Assembly (NCBI RefSeq): GCF_000687145.1
Contig: NZ_JMFG01000018.1
Coordinates: forward strand, 2,070-66,069
Direction: 5' to 3'
Source: Thermoanaerobaculum aquaticum
GTDB taxonomy: Bacteria > Acidobacteriota > Thermoanaerobaculia > Thermoanaerobaculales > Thermoanaerobaculaceae
Length of the DNA stretch: 64,000 nucleotides
Shown in pieces: positions 33,012-40,367 of this stretch. The position numbers and the translations under genes are program-made. The notes beneath the pieces are model-generated. The model searched no databases, was not told the DNA's origin, and saw only the letters and a list, made by a program, of their open reading frames with translations. Numbering within the stretch: position 1 is the first letter of the stretch; each line of letters begins with the position of its first letter.

Positions 33012-33154
33012 CGCGCCCTCCTGCAAGCCATCTCATCTTAGCGCGGAATAAGGTACGAAGCCAACGTTCTTGTTGCAAGCCGCGACATTTCCGTTCAGGG
33101 GCTTTGCCCGCGTCGCACTTTTGGGTTGTGCGCTCCATGGTAGGCTGCCCTCCG

Positions 33155-34273
33155 ATGAAGGTACTGGTGGTGGGACCATCATGGCCGTTCCGCGGGGGCA
33201 TTGCCCGCACCACCACCAGCTTAGCCGAGGCGCTGGCCAATCAGAACGCTTTAGCCGGTTTCTGCGTGCCGTTCCGCCAGTACCCCCGCTGGCTTTACCC
33301 CGGGGGAGAGGATCGCGACGAGGCTGCGTGTCCGCGGCTACCGCAGGCCAATGCCTGCTTTTCGCTGTTTGATCCGCTTTCCTGGCGGTTTTTGCGGCGG
33401 GCGATCAAGGACCTTGCTCCACAAGCGCTGGTGCTGCCCCACTGGACCGCAGCCTGGGCGCCTCTGGAGCTGTTCCTGGTGCGACAGGGGGTGCCGGTCT
33501 TTGGGGTGGTGCACAACCCCTTTGACCACTCCGGGGCGGCTTTGAGTCGCTGGGCCAGCCGGGCGGTGCTGGGCCGCTTTCGCGGGTTTTTGACCCACGC
33601 CAAGAGCGTGGCTTGGCAGCTTTCCCGCTGGTTTCCCGAAAAGCCCCTGCGTGTTCATCCGCTGCCGCCACCGCAGGTGACGCCGGTGGCCAGGCATCAG
33701 GCGCGGGAGAAGCTGGGAATAGCGCAAGACGCGGTGGTTTTCCTGTTTTTCGGTTTGGTGCGGCCCTACAAGGGGCTGGACGTGCTTTTGGATGCGGCCC
33801 GCTTGCTTCCCGAGGACCGCAAATGGACGCTGGCGGTGGCGGGCGAGCTTTGGGGTGAGGCCGGGGAGCTGGAGGCGCGCCTTGGCGATGCTTTTTGGCG
33901 GGAGAGGCTGCTGTTTCACCCCCAGTGGGTTCCCGAGGAGGAAAGCAAGCTCTGGTTTTCGGCAGCCGATGTGGTGGTTTTGCCCTACCGCCGGGCCACC
34001 GGTTCAGCGGTAGCGGCGCAAGCACTGGCGTACGGTTTGCCGCTGGTGGCCACCCGCACCGGCGGGCTGGAAGAGGTGGTGGAGGAGGGAGTCAACGGGC
34101 TTTTGGTGGAGCCTTCGGATGTGGAGGGGCTGGCAAAGGCCCTGGAGCAGCTTCTGGACCCGGAAAAACGGGAGCGCCTGGCGACGGGTGCGACGCTCCT
34201 GGGCCGTCGCTGGAGTTGGGATTCCTACGCTTCCTGCCTTCTGGACCTCATCCGCGAGGGTCTTGCTGTTTAG
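33155..34273 (+). CDS. Glycosyltransferase family 4
   Basis: A 372-residue GT-B enzyme. The N-terminal half holds VLVVGPSWPFRGGIA, and the C-terminal half has the sugar-nucleotide site: FGLVRPYKGLDVLLDA, then LPYRRATGSAVAAQALAYGLPLVATRTGGLEEVVEEG. Family 4 enzymes move a sugar from a nucleotide donor to a lipid or polysaccharide; the acceptor is unknown here. I chose the ATG at 33155 because homology begins there. Its stop overlaps the convergent XRE-S24 stop by 4 nt (34270-34273). Confidence 0.9.
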   Translation: MKVLVVGPSWPFRGGIARTTTSLAEALANQNALAGFCVPFRQYPRWLYPGGEDRDEAACPRLPQANACFSLFDPLSWRFLRRAIKDLAPQALVLPHWTAAWAPLELFLVRQGVPVFGVVHNPFDHSGAALSRWASRAVLGRFRGFLTHAKSVAWQLSRWFPEKPLRVHPLPPPQVTPVARHQAREKLGIAQDAVVFLFFGLVRPYKGLDVLLDAARLLPEDRKWTLAVAGELWGEAGELEARLGDAFWRERLLFHPQWVPEEESKLWFSAADVVVLPYRRATGSAVAAQALAYGLPLVATRTGGLEEVVEEGVNGLLVEPSDVEGLAKALEQLLDPEKRERLATGATLLGRRWSWDSYASCLLDLIREGLAV

Positions 34274-34944
34274 GGGCCGTGCTTTCCTGGCATCCACCAC
34301 ACCACCCGCCCCAAAACCACCTCCGACAAAGGCTGCCCTGGGCGCAGGCGAATGGCCCGGGGGAGGTGGGCGGGGTTGTCGGAAAGCAAAATCAAAACCC
34401 GTGAGGAAGGGTCCAGGACCAAGCGCTTGATGGTGCAGCCCAAGCTGTCCCCGGCTTCCTCCCGAACCGCGTAGATTTGCTTAGGGGTAATGTGCTCCAC
34501 TGGCGTGAGATCGAGAAGCACCGTGGCCCCCGGGGGGATGGTGTCGGCCATGGAGTCCTGGTCTTTGCCCAGCCGCACCAACACCGCCCGGGAGGGTTCC
34601 ACCCCGAGGGTTTTCAAGAGGGTTGCGGGGAGCGGTTCGTAGCCTTCCACGTGGTCGTTCACGAAGGCCGGTGGGCCAGCGGCAATGCGGTCGGCCACCA
34701 GGGGGACGGGCACGGTTTCGGCGGAGGGGGCAGCGGGGGGCTCTTCCCCTAGGAGATGGGCCACGGTGGTTCCCAAAGCCGAAGCGAGCCGGCGGAGCAC
34801 GGCAACCGTAGGTAGCGACTGGCCCCTTTCAATTTGCGCCAGGAAGTTCCGGGACACCCCGGCGCGGCGGGCTAGGGCTTCTTGGGAGAGCCCCGCCAGC
34901 TTCCGCAGGTGCCGGAGTCGCCAGGAAAGCTGTTCTGTGGTCAT
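34270..34944 (-). CDS. XRE-S24 repressor, LexA-like self-cleaving regulator
   Basis: A 224-residue protein with an N-terminal XRE helix-turn-helix (LSQEALARRAGVSRNFLAQIE, ~19-39 in part) and a C-terminal S24 peptidase domain. The cleavage region is LexA-like: VADRIAAGPPAF puts Ala89-Gly90 where LexA has its AAG site, and HVEGYEPLP matches HIEGHYQVD. The dyad is present: Ser131 in DSMADTIPPG and Lys173 in TIKRL. It should bind operators as a dimer and cut itself on RecA activation. It is divergent from imuA-imuB-dnaE2. This XRE-S24 pairing replaces a conventional LexA; Lactococcus HdiR is a known precedent for the architecture. Confidence 0.92.
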   Translation of the reverse strand: MTTEQLSWRLRHLRKLAGLSQEALARRAGVSRNFLAQIERGQSLPTVAVLRRLASALGTTVAHLLGEEPPAAPSAETVPVPLVADRIAAGPPAFVNDHVEGYEPLPATLLKTLGVEPSRAVLVRLGKDQDSMADTIPPGATVLLDLTPVEHITPKQIYAVREEAGDSLGCTIKRLVLDPSSRVLILLSDNPAHLPRAIRLRPGQPLSEVVLGRVVWWMPGKHGP

Positions 34945-34962
34945 TTGACCTCCACAGTGGTC

Positions 34963-34991
34963 AATATCGTGTGTGGTTCGAAGTTTGTCAA
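34963..34991 (-). promoter_or_regulatory. Promoter of the XRE-S24 repressor gene
   Basis: On the minus strand TTGACA (34986-34991), a 17-bp spacer and GATATT (34963-34968). The mRNA would start close to the ATG at 34944, whose GGAGG ribosome site sits inside an operator dyad. Confidence 0.7.
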
Positions 34992-35000
34992 CTATAGTGG

Positions 35001-35029
35001 TTGACATCTATAGAGGTCAGCCTTACATT
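35001..35029 (+). promoter_or_regulatory. Promoter of imuA-imuB-dnaE2
   Basis: TTGACA (35001-35006), a 17-bp spacer and TACATT (35024-35029). Its -35 is one arm of the 34986-35006 dyad, so repressor binding would block it. Confidence 0.75.
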
Positions 35030-35065
35030 AGGGTTGACCACGATGGTGTTCCATCGGGGGTGGTT

Positions 35066-35770
35066 ATGAGCGCTCGTCCCGTCCTCCTGCCGCTTGGGGA
35101 TGACCCCTCCTGGCGCCAGCTTACCCAGCGCTGGCGCTTCCAGGAGGAGCACCGTCCCCGCTTGAGCACCGGGGAGGAAACCATGGATGCCCTGCTGGCC
35201 GGAGGGTGGCCGGTGGGCAAGGTGGCGGAGCTGGTGGGGGCGGCAAGCTCGGGAAAAACCAGCCTGGCGGTAGCCACCGTGGCGGCGGCCACGGCCCGCG
35301 ATGAGCTGGCTCTGTGGGTGGATGCTTCGGGGCAGTTCGATGCTGCTTCCCTGGTGGCTGCGGGGGTGCGCTTGGAGCAGCTGCTGCTGGTCCAGGCTGG
35401 GGAACCGGGGCAAGCGGTGCGGGCGGTGGAGCTGGTGCTGGAGGCGGGGGGGTTCACGGTGGTGGTGGTGGACCTGGGAGGGGAGGAACCCCGGGAGGGC
35501 AGGGGCTTTCGCCAGGAGGAGCGGGCCCGCTTGCCGCTCCGTTTGGCACGGGCGGTGGAGCGGGCTGGAGTGGTGGGGCTGGTGCTCACCCCCAAACCGT
35601 GGGTGGGGACCTGGGCAGGGGTGCAGGTGGTGTTTTCTCCGGGCAAGCCCCGATTTGTGAAGGAGGAGGGGGCTGGTTTTTGGTTTGCCGGTTTCACGGT
35701 GCAAGCCCAGGTGGAGCGGGGAAAGGGGCAGCAGGTGGGGCGGAGGGTGGCGTGGGTGGCGGGAGGGTAA
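35066..35770 (+). CDS. imuA: ImuA-like RecA-fold mutagenesis protein
   Basis: The 234-residue protein is a shortened RecA-like ATPase-fold protein: VAELVGAASSGKTSLAVA holds a Walker A (GAASSGKT, 58-65), followed by ELALWVDASGQFDAASL and VVVVDLGG. ImuA-type proteins work with ImuB and DnaE2 in damage-induced mutagenesis. The family is variable, so the name follows from the RecA-like fold and gene order. I start it at ATG 35066 with GGGGGTGG upstream; a longer frame overlaps the operator and promoter and is unlikely. The next gene begins 1 nt after its stop. Confidence 0.88.
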   Translation: MSARPVLLPLGDDPSWRQLTQRWRFQEEHRPRLSTGEETMDALLAGGWPVGKVAELVGAASSGKTSLAVATVAAATARDELALWVDASGQFDAASLVAAGVRLEQLLLVQAGEPGQAVRAVELVLEAGGFTVVVVDLGGEEPREGRGFRQEERARLPLRLARAVERAGVVGLVLTPKPWVGTWAGVQVVFSPGKPRFVKEEGAGFWFAGFTVQAQVERGKGQQVGRRVAWVAGG

Positions 35771-37240
35771 ATGCGAATCGCAAGCCTCCTGGTGCCCGAT
35801 TTTCCGCTGGCGGCGCTCATCCGCAGCTTTCCTGAGCTGCGGGAACGGCCGGTGGCGGTGGCGGCAGGACCCTCTCCCCGCGACACCGTACTGGCTGCCA
35901 GTCCGGAGGCGCAAGCCTTAGGGGTGAGTGCGGGGATGACCGCCGCCCAGGCCCGGCAGGTGGACGGGAGGGTGGCGGTGAGGACGGTGCCCAAGGAGGT
36001 GCAGGCAGCCGCCAGCGCTGCCCTGGTGGAGGTGGCGGGGAGCTTTTCCCCTCACTTGCGCCAGGTCCAGCCGGGTCTGGTGTGGTTGAAGGTGGACGGC
36101 CTGGAGGGCCACTTTGCCGAAGAGCAGGCCTTGGCTTTGGAGATCTGGCGCCGCTGTTTCCGGGTAGGGCTGGCAGCGCATGTGGGCATTGGCAACAGCG
36201 GCCAGCTGGCCACGGTGGCCGCCCGCACCGGTGAGGTGGTGGTGGTGCCCCAGGGGGCCGAAGCTGGGTTTTTGGCGCCGCTGGCGGTCACACTGGCGGA
36301 GCCTTCCGCCGGGTGCGGGCACACGCTTGCGCTTTGGGGTGTGCGCACGTTCGGGGCTTTGGCCAAGCTGCCCCGAGAAGAGGTGGTGGCCAGGCTGGGA
36401 GAAGAAGGGCTGCGGCTCCACCGCCTGGCCTGCGGCGAAGGGGAGGATTTTGTTCCCGATCCCCCTGGCGAGGAGCTGAGGGAAGGGGTGTGGCTGGAGG
36501 AAGCGGTGCCCTCCCTGGAAGGGTGCCTGTTTGTGCTGCACGGGGTCCTTTCCCGCCTGGCCGAGCGGTTGCGGTTGCGGGGGGAGGGGTTTGCCCGGGT
36601 GAGGGTGGAACTGGCGCTGGAAGGCGGTGGAAAACGGGAGTACCGCCTGCCGCTTCTGGCACCCACCGACGAAGTGCCGGCCCTGTTGGCCTTAGCCCGC
36701 CTGATGTTTGCAGCTGCCCCACCGGGGGAAGCGGTGGAGGGGGTGGTGGTGGAAGCGCAGGGAGGTGTGGTGCGCTCGGTGCAGGGCTCGCTTTTTGGCC
36801 CACCCCGCCCTCACCCCGGTTCGCTGGCGGCAGCGTTGGTGCGGCTTTCAGCCATCGTGGGGCCGGAGCGGGTGGGGCAACCGCAGCTCGCCAACTCCCA
36901 CCGCCCCAGCGCGTGGAAGCTGGTGCCCTTTGCGCTCAGTTGGGAAAAGAAAAAAGAAAGCCCGTTGCCAGCGGAAAAGCCTCCGGTGCTGCGCCTCTGG
37001 CAGCCACCAAAGCCGGCCCAGGTGACGGTGGTGGGAGGCAAACCGGTGGCGGTGCGGGTGAACGGCAGCGGGGGCGTGGTGGTGGCGTGGGCGGGGCCTT
37101 ACCGGTGGCAGGGGGAGTGGTGGGGAGAGGGCGCTTTTGACCGGGACGATTACGACGTGGCCACCGCGGACGGGGCGGTTTGGCGCCTTTTTTACCACCG
37201 CAAGGAAAAGCGCTGGTACGTGGACGGGGTTTATGACTAA
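35771..37240 (+). CDS. imuB: ImuB, catalytically inactive Y-family polymerase-like protein
   Basis: A 489-residue Y-family-fold protein. The N terminus IASLLVPDFPLAAL aligns with the polymerase palm but without the usual metal-binding motif, and the second acidic motif is replaced by LKVDGLEGHF, so it should not polymerise, as known for ImuB. Near residue 338 the segment VQGSLFGP looks like a beta-clamp-binding motif. The C terminus has the ImuB-type VRVNGSGG and GPYRWQGEWW. It is thought to bridge DnaE2 and the clamp. It overlaps dnaE2 by 8 nt. Confidence 0.9.
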   Translation: MRIASLLVPDFPLAALIRSFPELRERPVAVAAGPSPRDTVLAASPEAQALGVSAGMTAAQARQVDGRVAVRTVPKEVQAAASAALVEVAGSFSPHLRQVQPGLVWLKVDGLEGHFAEEQALALEIWRRCFRVGLAAHVGIGNSGQLATVAARTGEVVVVPQGAEAGFLAPLAVTLAEPSAGCGHTLALWGVRTFGALAKLPREEVVARLGEEGLRLHRLACGEGEDFVPDPPGEELREGVWLEEAVPSLEGCLFVLHGVLSRLAERLRLRGEGFARVRVELALEGGGKREYRLPLLAPTDEVPALLALARLMFAAAPPGEAVEGVVVEAQGGVVRSVQGSLFGPPRPHPGSLAAALVRLSAIVGPERVGQPQLANSHRPSAWKLVPFALSWEKKKESPLPAEKPPVLRLWQPPKPAQVTVVGGKPVAVRVNGSGGVVVAWAGPYRWQGEWWGEGAFDRDDYDVATADGAVWRLFYHRKEKRWYVDGVYD

Positions 37241-40200
37241 GGTTTTGCCTTACTGCGAGCTCCACGCTCACTCGGCCTTTTCCTTTTTGGAAGGGGCCTG
37301 TGAGCCCGAAACCCTGGCCGAAAGGGCACAGGAGCTTGCTTTGCCGGCGGTGGCCCTGGTGGACCGCGGTGGGGTGTACGGCTTGCCGCGCTTTGCCAAG
37401 GCTTGCCGGGAGGTGGGCGTAGAAGCCCTGGCCGGTGCTGAGGTGCCGCTGGAGGACGGCTCCCGTTTGCCGCTTTTGGTGAGGGATCCCAGAGGCTGGT
37501 CCAACCTTTGCCGGCTGCTCACCACGGCTGCGCTGGGCCGCCCCAAGGGACAGGCGGCCGTCAGCTGGGAGCAGGTCCAGCACCACGCTGCCGGGCTTTT
37601 GGCCCTCACCGGTTGGGAGGAAGGGCCTTTGCTGCGGGCCTGGCGCCGGGGTGGGGAGGAAGCAGCGGGTAGCCTGCTTGCCCAGCTTGTGGCTTGCTTT
37701 GGCAAGGAAAACCTGGCGGTGGAGGTTTGCCGGCAGCTGGTGCGGGGGGAGGAAAGGGCCATTGCCGCCGTGGTGCGGCTGGCCCGCCGGTTTGGGCTGC
37801 CTCTGGTGGCAACGACCAACGCGCTTTTGGCTCGCGAGGAAGACGGGATGGTAGCGGATTGCTTTACGTGCCTTAAGGAAAAAACCACCTTGGATCAGGC
37901 TGGAAAGCTTCTGGCCCCCAACCGGGCGAGGGTTTTGCGGGGTGCCCAAGCCATGAGCGCGCTTTTTTCTGAGCTGCCGGAAGCGGTGAGCAACACCGTG
38001 AAGGTTGCCGAACGCTGCACCTTCCGCCTTTCCCAGTTGCCCTACCGCTTCCCCCGGGCGGAGGTGGGCCCCGGGAGAAGCGAAGCCGAAGAGCTGCGGG
38101 CGCGGGTGTGGGAGGGGGCAAAAACCAGGTACCGGCAGATCACACCCCGGGTGCGGGCGCAGCTGGAGCGGGAGCTGGCGCTCATCGAAAAGCTGTCCTT
38201 GAGCGGCTACTTCTTGGTAGTGCACGACATCGTGCGTTTCTGCCAGAAAGAAGGAATCATGGTGCAGGGTCGCGGTTCAGCTGCCAACTCTGCCGTGTGT
38301 TACGCGCTTTCCATCACCAACGTGGATCCCATTGCCTATGACCTGCTGTTCGAGCGCTTCCTTTCGGAAGAGCGGGGGGAATGGCCCGATATTGACCTGG
38401 ACTTGCCCTCGGGTGACGAACGGGAAAAGGTCATCCAGCACGTGTACCGCACCTACGGTGAGCGGGGGGCGGGGATGACGGCAGTGGTGGTTTGTTACCG
38501 GGCGCGGGCGGCGGTGCGGGAAGCGGGAAAGGTGCTGGGGTTTGATCCCGAACGCTTGGAAAAGCTTTCGGCCATGCTTTCGGGGTGGGGCTTTGAGCGC
38601 GATCCCCGGGAAGAGCTGCCGCAGCACATGCGGGCGGTGGGGTTGGATCCCGAGGAAAGGCGGGGCCAGCACTTCGTGGAGCTGGTGGCGCGGCTTTCCG
38701 GGCTTCCCCGCCACTTGGGGCAGCACACCGGTGGCATGGTGCTGGCGGCAGGACGATTGGACGACGTGGTGCCGCTGGAGCCAGCTTCCATGCCCGGGCG
38801 GGTGGTGATCCAGTGGGACAAGGACGACTGTGCGGATTTGGGGATCATCAAGGTGGACCTTTTGGGCTTGGGCATGATGCAGGTGCTGGAAATGGCGGTT
38901 CCCCTCATCCGCCAACACGAGGGGGTGGAGGTGGACTACGCCCACCTGCCGGCGGACGACCCGGCGGTGTACGACATGCTGTGCCGCGCCGATACGGTGG
39001 GGGTTTTCCAAGTGGAAAGCCGGGCGCAAATGGCCACCCTGCCCCGCATGCAGCCCCGGCGCTTTTACGACTTGGTGGTGGAGGTGGCCATCATTCGCCC
39101 GGGCCCCATCGTGGGCAAGATGGTGCACCCGTACCTCAACCGCCGCTTGGGCCGGGAACCGGTCACCTACCCCCACCCCGACCTCCAGCCCATCCTGGAG
39201 CGTACCCTGGGTGTGCCGCTGTTTCAGGAGCAGCTCATGCGGGTGGCCATGGTGGCGGCGGGCTTCACCGGGGGTCAAGCGGAGGAGCTGCGCCGGGCCA
39301 TGGGGGCCAAGCGCTCCCTGGAGCGCATGAAGAAGCTGGAGCGACAGCTGCGGGAGGGGATGGCCGCTCGCGGCATTACCGGCAAGGCCGCCGACGACAT
39401 CGTGCAGGGCATTACCTCTTTTGCCCTTTACGGCTTTCCCGAATCCCACGCCGCTTCCTTTGCCCTCATTGCCTACGCTTCGGCCTACCTCAAGGCCCAC
39501 CATCCGGCGGCGTTTTACTGTGCTCTGCTGTCGGCCTGGCCCATGGGCTTTTACCACCCGGCCACCATCGTCCAGGACGCCCGGCGGCATGGGGTGCGGG
39601 TGTTGCCGGTGGATGTCAACTGCTCCCAGTGGCTTTGCACCCTGGAGCGGGATGATCAGGGGAAGCTGGCGGTGCGGTTGGGCTTTAAGTTCGTGAAGGG
39701 ACTGCGGCGGGAGGTAGCGGAAAACCTGGCGCGGGAAGCGCAAAAACAACCTTTTGCCAGCGTGGAAGACCTCCTGCGGCGGGGTGGGCTCAACCGCCGG
39801 GAGCTGGAGGTTCTGGCCAGCATTGGGGCCTGTGCCAGCCTGGGGGAAACCCGGCGGGCAGCGCTCTGGCAGGTCAGCGCCTTTGACGGCCGTAGTCGCC
39901 CGTTGCAGCAGGCCATGGGGTGGGGGAAAAGCCCCAGCCCGCTGCCGGACATGGACTTGCGGGAACGGTACGTGGCCGATTTTGAGGGTACGGGCTTAAC
40001 CGTAGGCCGTCACCCCCTGCACATGTTTCGCTCCGCCCTGCAAAAGCGAGGGGTTTTGTCCGCTTGTGAGGTGGCCCGGTGCCGTCATGGGCAGAGGGTT
40101 AAGGTAGGCGGCGTGGTCATCGTCCGGCAACGCCCCAGCACCGCCAAGGGGATGTGCTTTGCCACGCTGGAAGACGAAAGCGGCTTCGTGAACGTGGTGT

Positions 40201-40367
40201 TTGCCCCCGATCTCTTCACCAAGGAACGGGCAACTATCACCACCTCGGCGCTTCTGGAGGTGGATGGCGTCGTGCAGAGCCGGGACGGCGTTTTGACCGT
40301 GCGGGCCCTGGCCGCTCGTCCGCTGGTGCTTCCCACCCCGGCCTGTGACTCCCGGGATTTTCACTGA
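37233..40367 (+). CDS. dnaE2: Error-prone DNA polymerase DnaE2 (ImuC)
   Basis: A 1044-residue C-family polymerase: PHP domain (CELHAHSAFSFLEGA), polymerase palm with the active-site PDIDLDLPSGDE near 386 and VQGRGSAANSAVCYALSITNVDP, fingers, a helix-hairpin-helix region and an OB fold (VKVGGVVIVRQRPSTAKGMCFATLEDE). Length is typical of DnaE2 (~1050) and shorter than replicative DnaE (~1160). With ImuA/ImuB it copies past lesions at the cost of mutation. The ATG at 37233 overlaps the imuB stop by 8 nt, and the three genes form one operon. Confidence 0.96.
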   Translation: MTKVLPYCELHAHSAFSFLEGACEPETLAERAQELALPAVALVDRGGVYGLPRFAKACREVGVEALAGAEVPLEDGSRLPLLVRDPRGWSNLCRLLTTAALGRPKGQAAVSWEQVQHHAAGLLALTGWEEGPLLRAWRRGGEEAAGSLLAQLVACFGKENLAVEVCRQLVRGEERAIAAVVRLARRFGLPLVATTNALLAREEDGMVADCFTCLKEKTTLDQAGKLLAPNRARVLRGAQAMSALFSELPEAVSNTVKVAERCTFRLSQLPYRFPRAEVGPGRSEAEELRARVWEGAKTRYRQITPRVRAQLERELALIEKLSLSGYFLVVHDIVRFCQKEGIMVQGRGSAANSAVCYALSITNVDPIAYDLLFERFLSEERGEWPDIDLDLPSGDEREKVIQHVYRTYGERGAGMTAVVVCYRARAAVREAGKVLGFDPERLEKLSAMLSGWGFERDPREELPQHMRAVGLDPEERRGQHFVELVARLSGLPRHLGQHTGGMVLAAGRLDDVVPLEPASMPGRVVIQWDKDDCADLGIIKVDLLGLGMMQVLEMAVPLIRQHEGVEVDYAHLPADDPAVYDMLCRADTVGVFQVESRAQMATLPRMQPRRFYDLVVEVAIIRPGPIVGKMVHPYLNRRLGREPVTYPHPDLQPILERTLGVPLFQEQLMRVAMVAAGFTGGQAEELRRAMGAKRSLERMKKLERQLREGMAARGITGKAADDIVQGITSFALYGFPESHAASFALIAYASAYLKAHHPAAFYCALLSAWPMGFYHPATIVQDARRHGVRVLPVDVNCSQWLCTLERDDQGKLAVRLGFKFVKGLRREVAENLAREAQKQPFASVEDLLRRGGLNRRELEVLASIGACASLGETRRAALWQVSAFDGRSRPLQQAMGWGKSPSPLPDMDLRERYVADFEGTGLTVGRHPLHMFRSALQKRGVLSACEVARCRHGQRVKVGGVVIVRQRPSTAKGMCFATLEDESGFVNVVFAPDLFTKERATITTSALLEVDGVVQSRDGVLTVRALAARPLVLPTPACDSRDFH

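Follow-up and report, generated by a model that had tools for sequence, protein, structure and literature searches.

A CI-like XRE-S24 repressor as the probable replacement for LexA at the imuA-imuB-dnaE2 mutasome of Thermoanaerobaculaceae

What controls a mutagenesis cassette when the regulator encoded next to it is a CI-like XRE-S24 protein? The question is raised by a 64-kb stretch of DNA (hereafter, the window) from contig 18 of a 2.66-Mb draft genome, G000, which is 95.8% complete. Together with 16 other genomes it belongs to family f1, which appears to be Thermoanaerobaculaceae (Acidobacteriota) and is referred to below as the family; the sister family, f2, is represented by 20 genomes. 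The hosts are heat-loving Acidobacteriota. We consider it very probable that in Thermoanaerobaculaceae this repressor has taken over from LexA the role of damage switch for imuA-imuB-dnaE2. The observations behind this view are the genes themselves, the catalytic residues, the operators and their conservation, the lack of a detectable LexA and the missing ancestral box at imuA.

The repressor, the mutasome operon and the region between them

A sequence-only reading of the window had described an XRE-S24 repressor beside an imuA-imuB-dnaE2 cassette, and all of the parts were found where it had put them. The features, in window coordinates, are as follows.

34270..34944, minus strand: XRE (HTH_3)-Peptidase_S24 repressor, 224 aa, assigned by Pfam domains and residue alignment
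34945..34964, unstranded: predicted operator O_rep, TTGACCTCCACAGTGGTCAA, an exact match to the consensus, the top-scoring site genome-wide, conserved in orthologs
34963..34991, minus strand: candidate repressor promoter, -35 TTGACA (34991-34986), 17-nt spacer, -10 GATATT (34968-34963)
34985..35004, unstranded: central dyad, TTGTCAACTATAGTGGTTGA, linking the -35 boxes of both divergent promoters, the third-best site in the window
35001..35020, unstranded: predicted operator O_imu, TTGACATCTATAGAGGTCAG, one mismatch to the consensus, covering the -35 box and the spacer of the imuA promoter
35001..35029, plus strand: candidate imuA promoter, -35 TTGACA (35001-35006), 17-nt spacer, -10 TACATT (35024-35029), overlapping O_imu
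35034..35053, unstranded: predicted operator O3, TTGACCACGATGGTGTTCCA, weaker, two mismatches, 33 bp downstream of O_imu
35066..35770, plus strand: imuA, RecA-like mutasome protein, 234 aa, assigned by profile matches
35771..37240, plus strand: imuB, Y-family-like protein, 489 aa, profile match to IMS
37233..40367, plus strand: dnaE2 (imuC), error-prone polymerase III alpha, assigned by NF004225

The mutasome cassette comprises three genes in a single operon (35066-40367), from which the repressor gene is transcribed divergently. Its alpha subunit is of the DnaE2 type, scoring 1278 bits on the error-prone model NF004225 (cut-off 939). ImuA matches RecA/ImuA models, and its identity is supported by its position and its RecA-like domain despite a score of 59 on NF033429, which is under the curated cut-off of 150. 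Since the ATG of imuB (35771) follows the imuA stop codon TAA (35768-35770) with no gap and the ATG of dnaE2 (37233) falls within the 3' end of imuB, the three genes are probably translated as one unit. The repressor gene (34270-34944) and the end of a convergent glycosyltransferase-like ORF (33104-34273) overlap by 4 bases, and a coding sequence similar to this ORF adjoins the repressor also at loci L003 and L014.

Translation of the repressor likely starts at ATG 34944; a longer ORF starting at 35007 was ruled out because it would read through its own operators. Pfam identified both HTH_3 (1.8e-16) and Peptidase_S24 (6.3e-10), each past its cut-off, and did not find PF01726, the winged HTH of canonical LexA, in the repressor, where HTH_3/HTH_31 was found instead. 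The AlphaFold model (mean pLDDT 84.7) is in line with this, its N-domain resembling lambdoid CI/434/SinR/DdrO-type HTHs. The modelled C-domain matches LexA C-domains with Z of 11-13 over 117-128 residues, for example 1jhc (Z 12.9, 125 residues, 2.9 A), and RecA-bound LexA (8s7g, 8trg) with Z of 11.4-11.7. The S24 domain has the Ala-Gly bond and the Ser-Lys dyad that canonical LexA requires: the predicted cleavage bond is Ala89-Gly90, with Ser131 as the nucleophile and Lys173 as the general base, and the numbering given in the sequence-only reading is right when counted from ATG 34944. A88-A89-G90, S131-M132 and K173 are invariant across 13 repressor orthologs, and when the repressor is aligned with Escherichia coli LexA, lambda CI and the DMS3 c repressor, few columns are shared by all, A89, G90, S131, M132 and K173 being among them. 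However, the loop before Ser131, KDQDSM, is 2 residues longer than in LexA and CI, and therefore RecA-stimulated cleavage of the repressor is not to be assumed. The closest named relatives of the protein come from Thermoanaerobaculum MAGs (76-88% identity).

The operator core that had been noticed in the intergenic region proved to be real. The predicted operator is a 20-bp palindrome, TTGACMWC-N4-GWKGTCAA, with three sites spread over both promoters. O_rep directly precedes the repressor start codon and touches the repressor -10 box; the repressor promoter itself was identified by consensus match alone (10 of 12 positions). The central dyad is possibly an extra weak operator, or its score may come simply from the two -35 boxes that meet there. 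When the window was scanned with a matrix whose training set left out this genus, the four highest-scoring sites all fell between the repressor gene and imuA, with O_imu ranking first. In the corresponding regions of 13 orthologs there are 23 operator sites with at most three mismatches, compared with 0.08 expected from dinucleotide shuffles, and in G000 the operator pattern has 8 matches versus 0 for a matched control pattern. Conservation of the operators among orthologs extends down to 64% repressor protein identity. O_rep and O_imu are 56 bp apart, start to start, in ten orthologs, and O3 keeps its register in most of them, the distance from O_imu to O3 corresponding to about three helical turns. 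In two genomes (G010 and G013) the distance between O_rep and O_imu is some 172 bp, but that from O_imu to O3 is still 33 bp. This conserved spacing points to repressor dimers sitting on one face of the helix, and they may bind cooperatively.

LexA, its box and the ancestral state

A search of the genome for a conventional LexA, which the sequence-only reading had proposed as a check, found none. A six-frame search detected no PF01726 in G000 (a draft, as noted above), and no confident LexA was found by the same means in any of the 17 family genomes, including 12 assemblies that are at least 90% complete. Marginal PF01726 matches occur in four family genomes (E 1e-4 to 6e-4, one just past the cut-off); all of them are partial and none coincides with an S24 domain. 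By the identical search LexA is present in 19 of the 20 sister-family genomes. The S24 search of G000 returned exactly one protein, the repressor, and the S24 matches of other family genomes are mostly phage-type or signal-peptidase-like. The suggestion that the locus is a self-contained unit with its own operator is therefore upheld only in part: a repressor of the self-cleaving type apparently does govern itself and the imu cassette as one unit, but this unit is not separate from the main SOS control of the cell, because neither a canonical LexA nor another S24 protein was found in G000. In other words, the repressor looks like a replacement for LexA and not like a second system alongside it.

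Repressor orthologs are present in 13 of the 17 family genomes, and in 12 of these 13 the divergent synteny with imuA is retained. In G005 the repressor lies away from imuA with its own operator, TTGACTCATATCGTTATCAA, retained (L014, 2155-2174), and may act on the cassette in trans. Two family genomes (92-96% complete) lack both the repressor and imuB, as if the two were kept or lost together. In G003 (82% complete) imuB is present, the repressor was not detected and the contig ends short of imuA. The repressor is absent from the 20 sister-family genomes, which have HTH-only matches at most. Among 396 genomes of the phylum, with few candidates scored per genome, the matches were family members and one distant protein of other architecture; within the genomes searched, orthologs are thus found solely in one Acidobacteriota family. 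Two further observations concern genomes outside it. In G071, from another family of the phylum, locus L150 (1477-2556, minus strand) encodes a 359-aa protein in which a long central segment separates an N-terminal HTH from an S24 domain closely resembling that of the repressor (IAAG, KDQDSM), with no imu genes adjacent within the locus. In G037, a 2.0-Mb genome of the same class (97% complete), LexA, the repressor and imuB were all undetected, and this bacterium is possibly without any SOS regulator.

In the sister family, as in other families of the class, a direct-repeat box, about TTAYGCYT-N6-YRCCTAT, is common to the lexA and imuA promoters; examples are TTACGCCTTATTATCACCTATG upstream of lexA and TTATGCTTTATTTATACCTATA upstream of imuA. 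The box was noted at 14 lexA loci (L021-L024, L026-L029, L031-L035 and L037) and 11 imuA loci (L154, L155, L158, L160, L162, L163, L166, L167, L169, L170 and L172). With a matrix built from 12 sites, most of the promoters reach scores of about 20-31. Eight loci that did not contribute to training also score (L163, L170, L172, L024, L028, L031, L035 and L037), and a few lexA loci (L025, L039 and L040) are without the box. In the imuA/repressor regions of the family the box was not found, the best score being 6.4. We found no description of it in the literature searched. The canonical LexA of related Acidobacteriota seems to use this direct-repeat box. No lexA was seen beside the imu cassette of the sister family, where it is located elsewhere. 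Because the box is present at both lexA and imuA in the sister family, canonical LexA very likely controlled imuA formerly; and because the sister family keeps LexA and the box while the family is without both, a CI-like repressor with its own operator would have displaced LexA at the mutasome promoter. Judging from these sequences, the family has apparently swapped out both the regulator protein and its box.

As to where the repressor came from, in a tree of C-domains eight repressors are placed apart from the class's own LexAs (support 99/96), beside the DMS3 c repressor and another XRE-S24 protein, with long branches and an unsure deep placement. Among phage proteins, those most similar to it are the c repressors of the DMS3/MP22 type, at 32% identity across 94% of the length; no close viral relative was found in IMG/VR, phage and plasmid relatives reaching just about 30-32%. 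Most likely it arose by capture of a phage-type repressor, and not from a LexA whose N-terminus had been exchanged.

The proposed switch, its regulon and competing explanations

By analogy with known S24 regulators, we infer that the repressor binds DNA, is cleaved with the help of RecA and makes the system inducible by damage. In an undamaged cell, dimers would occupy O_rep, O_imu and O3; occupancy of O_imu would block the imuA promoter at its -35 box and spacer, and the repressor would damp its own promoter. Upon damage, RecA filaments would stimulate self-cleavage at Ala89-Gly90 through Ser131/Lys173, the dimer would fall apart, and both the mutasome and new repressor would be made. Once the damage is gone, fresh repressor would reset the switch.

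The regulon looks minimal, essentially a single divergent unit. With the 20-bp consensus and at most two mismatches there are 10 places in G000, three of them at the imu locus. Six of the other seven sit inside genes with clear Pfam assignments (MscS, SBF, 4HBT, S41 peptidase, ribosomal L1 and POT), and the remaining one, a one-mismatch site on C4, is inside an ORF with merely a weak DUF4139 match. Hence the second check that had been proposed, for further copies of the operator, turned up no other site in a regulatory position in G000 at this threshold. About half of the three-mismatch sites in G000 were listed, so the regulon may include weaker targets. A shorter operator core, RACCWCYRYRGWGGTY, was tried for a wider regulon and was too loose (1063 matches versus 879 for the control). 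No operator was found at the recA promoter in the recA loci of 16 family genomes, nor at second Y-family genes in the family (L092, L100 and L101). An operator-like sequence, CTGACCACGAGCCTTGTCAA (17 bits), lies at position 210 of L063 in G006, about 1.3 kb upstream of recA. We lean, by a modest margin of belief, toward the broader view that the LexA SOS response disappeared and was reconstructed around a single captured phage-type repressor, its regulon being the mutasome alone, with recA and other repair genes outside.

Three other explanations have to be considered. It is unlikely, though the least so of the three, that the repressor controls the cassette while its S24 domain senses a cue other than RecA, such as another coprotease, heat or an antirepressor, in which case the locus would not be a strict SOS unit. 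Some LexA-like proteins, IrvR for example, do depart from the RecA rule, the loop before Ser131 is unlike that of LexA and CI, and recA is outside the regulon. Nonetheless, neither the scissile Ala-Gly nor the Ser-Lys dyad varies among the orthologs, cleavage is RecA-dependent in most S24 regulators studied, and the target mutasome is SOS-controlled in most hosts (PMC3901139). Much less probable is that another, unrecognised LexA is the main SOS regulator and the repressor merely a secondary, LexA2-like local switch. The draft state of the assemblies (G000 included) and the marginal PF01726 matches in four family members leave some room for this, but six-frame searches detected no LexA in G000 and no confident one in the 12 family assemblies at least 90% complete, in contrast to 19 of 20 sister-family genomes; moreover, the repressor is the sole S24 protein detected in G000, those elsewhere being mostly phage-type or signal-peptidase-like, and the ancestral LexA box is missing at imuA. 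Finally, that a prophage or mobile-element repressor lies beside the cassette by chance is scarcely credible: its CI-like domains and its likeness to DMS3/MP22-type c repressors (32% over 94% of the length) would suit such an origin, but 12 of the 13 genomes retain the divergent synteny with imuA, even at 64% identity, the operators are common to both promoters, the repressor and imuB are missing together, no viral contig with a close relative was found, and the pair with its operators is conserved across genera.

Significance and relation to known systems

If replacement of LexA by the CI-like repressor is true, it would be another independent case of bacteria rebuilding the SOS response from a viral part, and one more lineage, from another phylum, joins the few in which a phage-type S24 repressor replaces LexA. 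The takeover of a mutasome agrees with the proposal that control of error-prone polymerases comes first (PMC8565304). Since LexA and its box persist at that promoter in the sister family, both the earlier and the later state of the takeover can be seen, and a change of regulator at a single promoter can be mapped onto a tree and tested. Self-contained divergent units have also been proposed as the pieces from which SOS networks are rebuilt (PMC13148647); the present locus fits that description, and its target is well understood. A prediction follows that in the family only mutagenesis, and not general repair, is damage-induced via this repressor.

We found no report of this system in the open-access literature, to which our search was confined, subscription papers being outside it. 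What is new here is the missing LexA in the genome and the family, the repressor as the sole S24 protein of G000, and the direct-repeat box of the sister family. The system resembles HdiR, UmuDAb, the non-canonical LexAs of Bacteroidetes and FddR, and is a member of none of these groups.

The expectation that LexA2 normally sits at this place holds loosely. In Pseudomonas putida, lexA2 is the first gene of a lexA2-imuA-imuB-dnaE2 operon (PMC3901139), so that a dedicated LexA-type repressor is physically linked to mutasome genes in both cases. However, LexA2 is a canonical LexA paralog encoded in the same operon and accompanied by a second LexA, whereas the present repressor is XRE-type, divergent and alone; in the sister family lexA is elsewhere and reaches imuA via the box. 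HdiR (Streptococcaceae) and UmuDAb (Acinetobacter) are likewise S24 repressors distinct from LexA whose minimal regulons consist of error-prone polymerases (PMC8565304), but their lineages and polymerases are different and UmuDAb derives from UmuD. The non-canonical LexAs of Bacteroidetes (Sanchez-Osuna et al. 2021, PMC8565304) share with the repressor a PF01381 HTH joined to a PF00717 S24 domain, the Ala-Gly bond, the Ser-Lys dyad and a CI-like N-terminus, and they too stand in for a missing LexA. They regulate imuA-imuB-dnaE2 in some species, use the motifs CTAA-N5-TTAG and GGA-N5-TCC, have wide regulons that include recA in several species, and are reported to be exclusive to Bacteroidetes (PMC8565304). 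Unlike them, the repressor described here has neither motif and no wide regulon, only a single divergent unit.

A parallel in organization is seen in Francisella, where FddR forms an autoregulated divergent unit and is able to control dinB (Perez-Varela et al. 2026, PMC13148647). Both look like co-opted phage-type S24 repressors with a palindrome and a divergent target, which for FddR is dinB in two species. FddR occurs without a canonical LexA response and with recA outside its regulon, and the same appears to hold here. The layout, the operators and the absence of LexA fit an autoregulated divergent unit of the FddR type, autoregulation of the repressor being predicted. The differences are that the operator is GTG-N11-CAC in the Francisella clade and TTGACMWC-N4-GWKGTCAA here, that the present target is the whole imuA-imuB-dnaE2 cassette in a different phylum, and that in the present case the sister family still displays the ancestral LexA together with its box.
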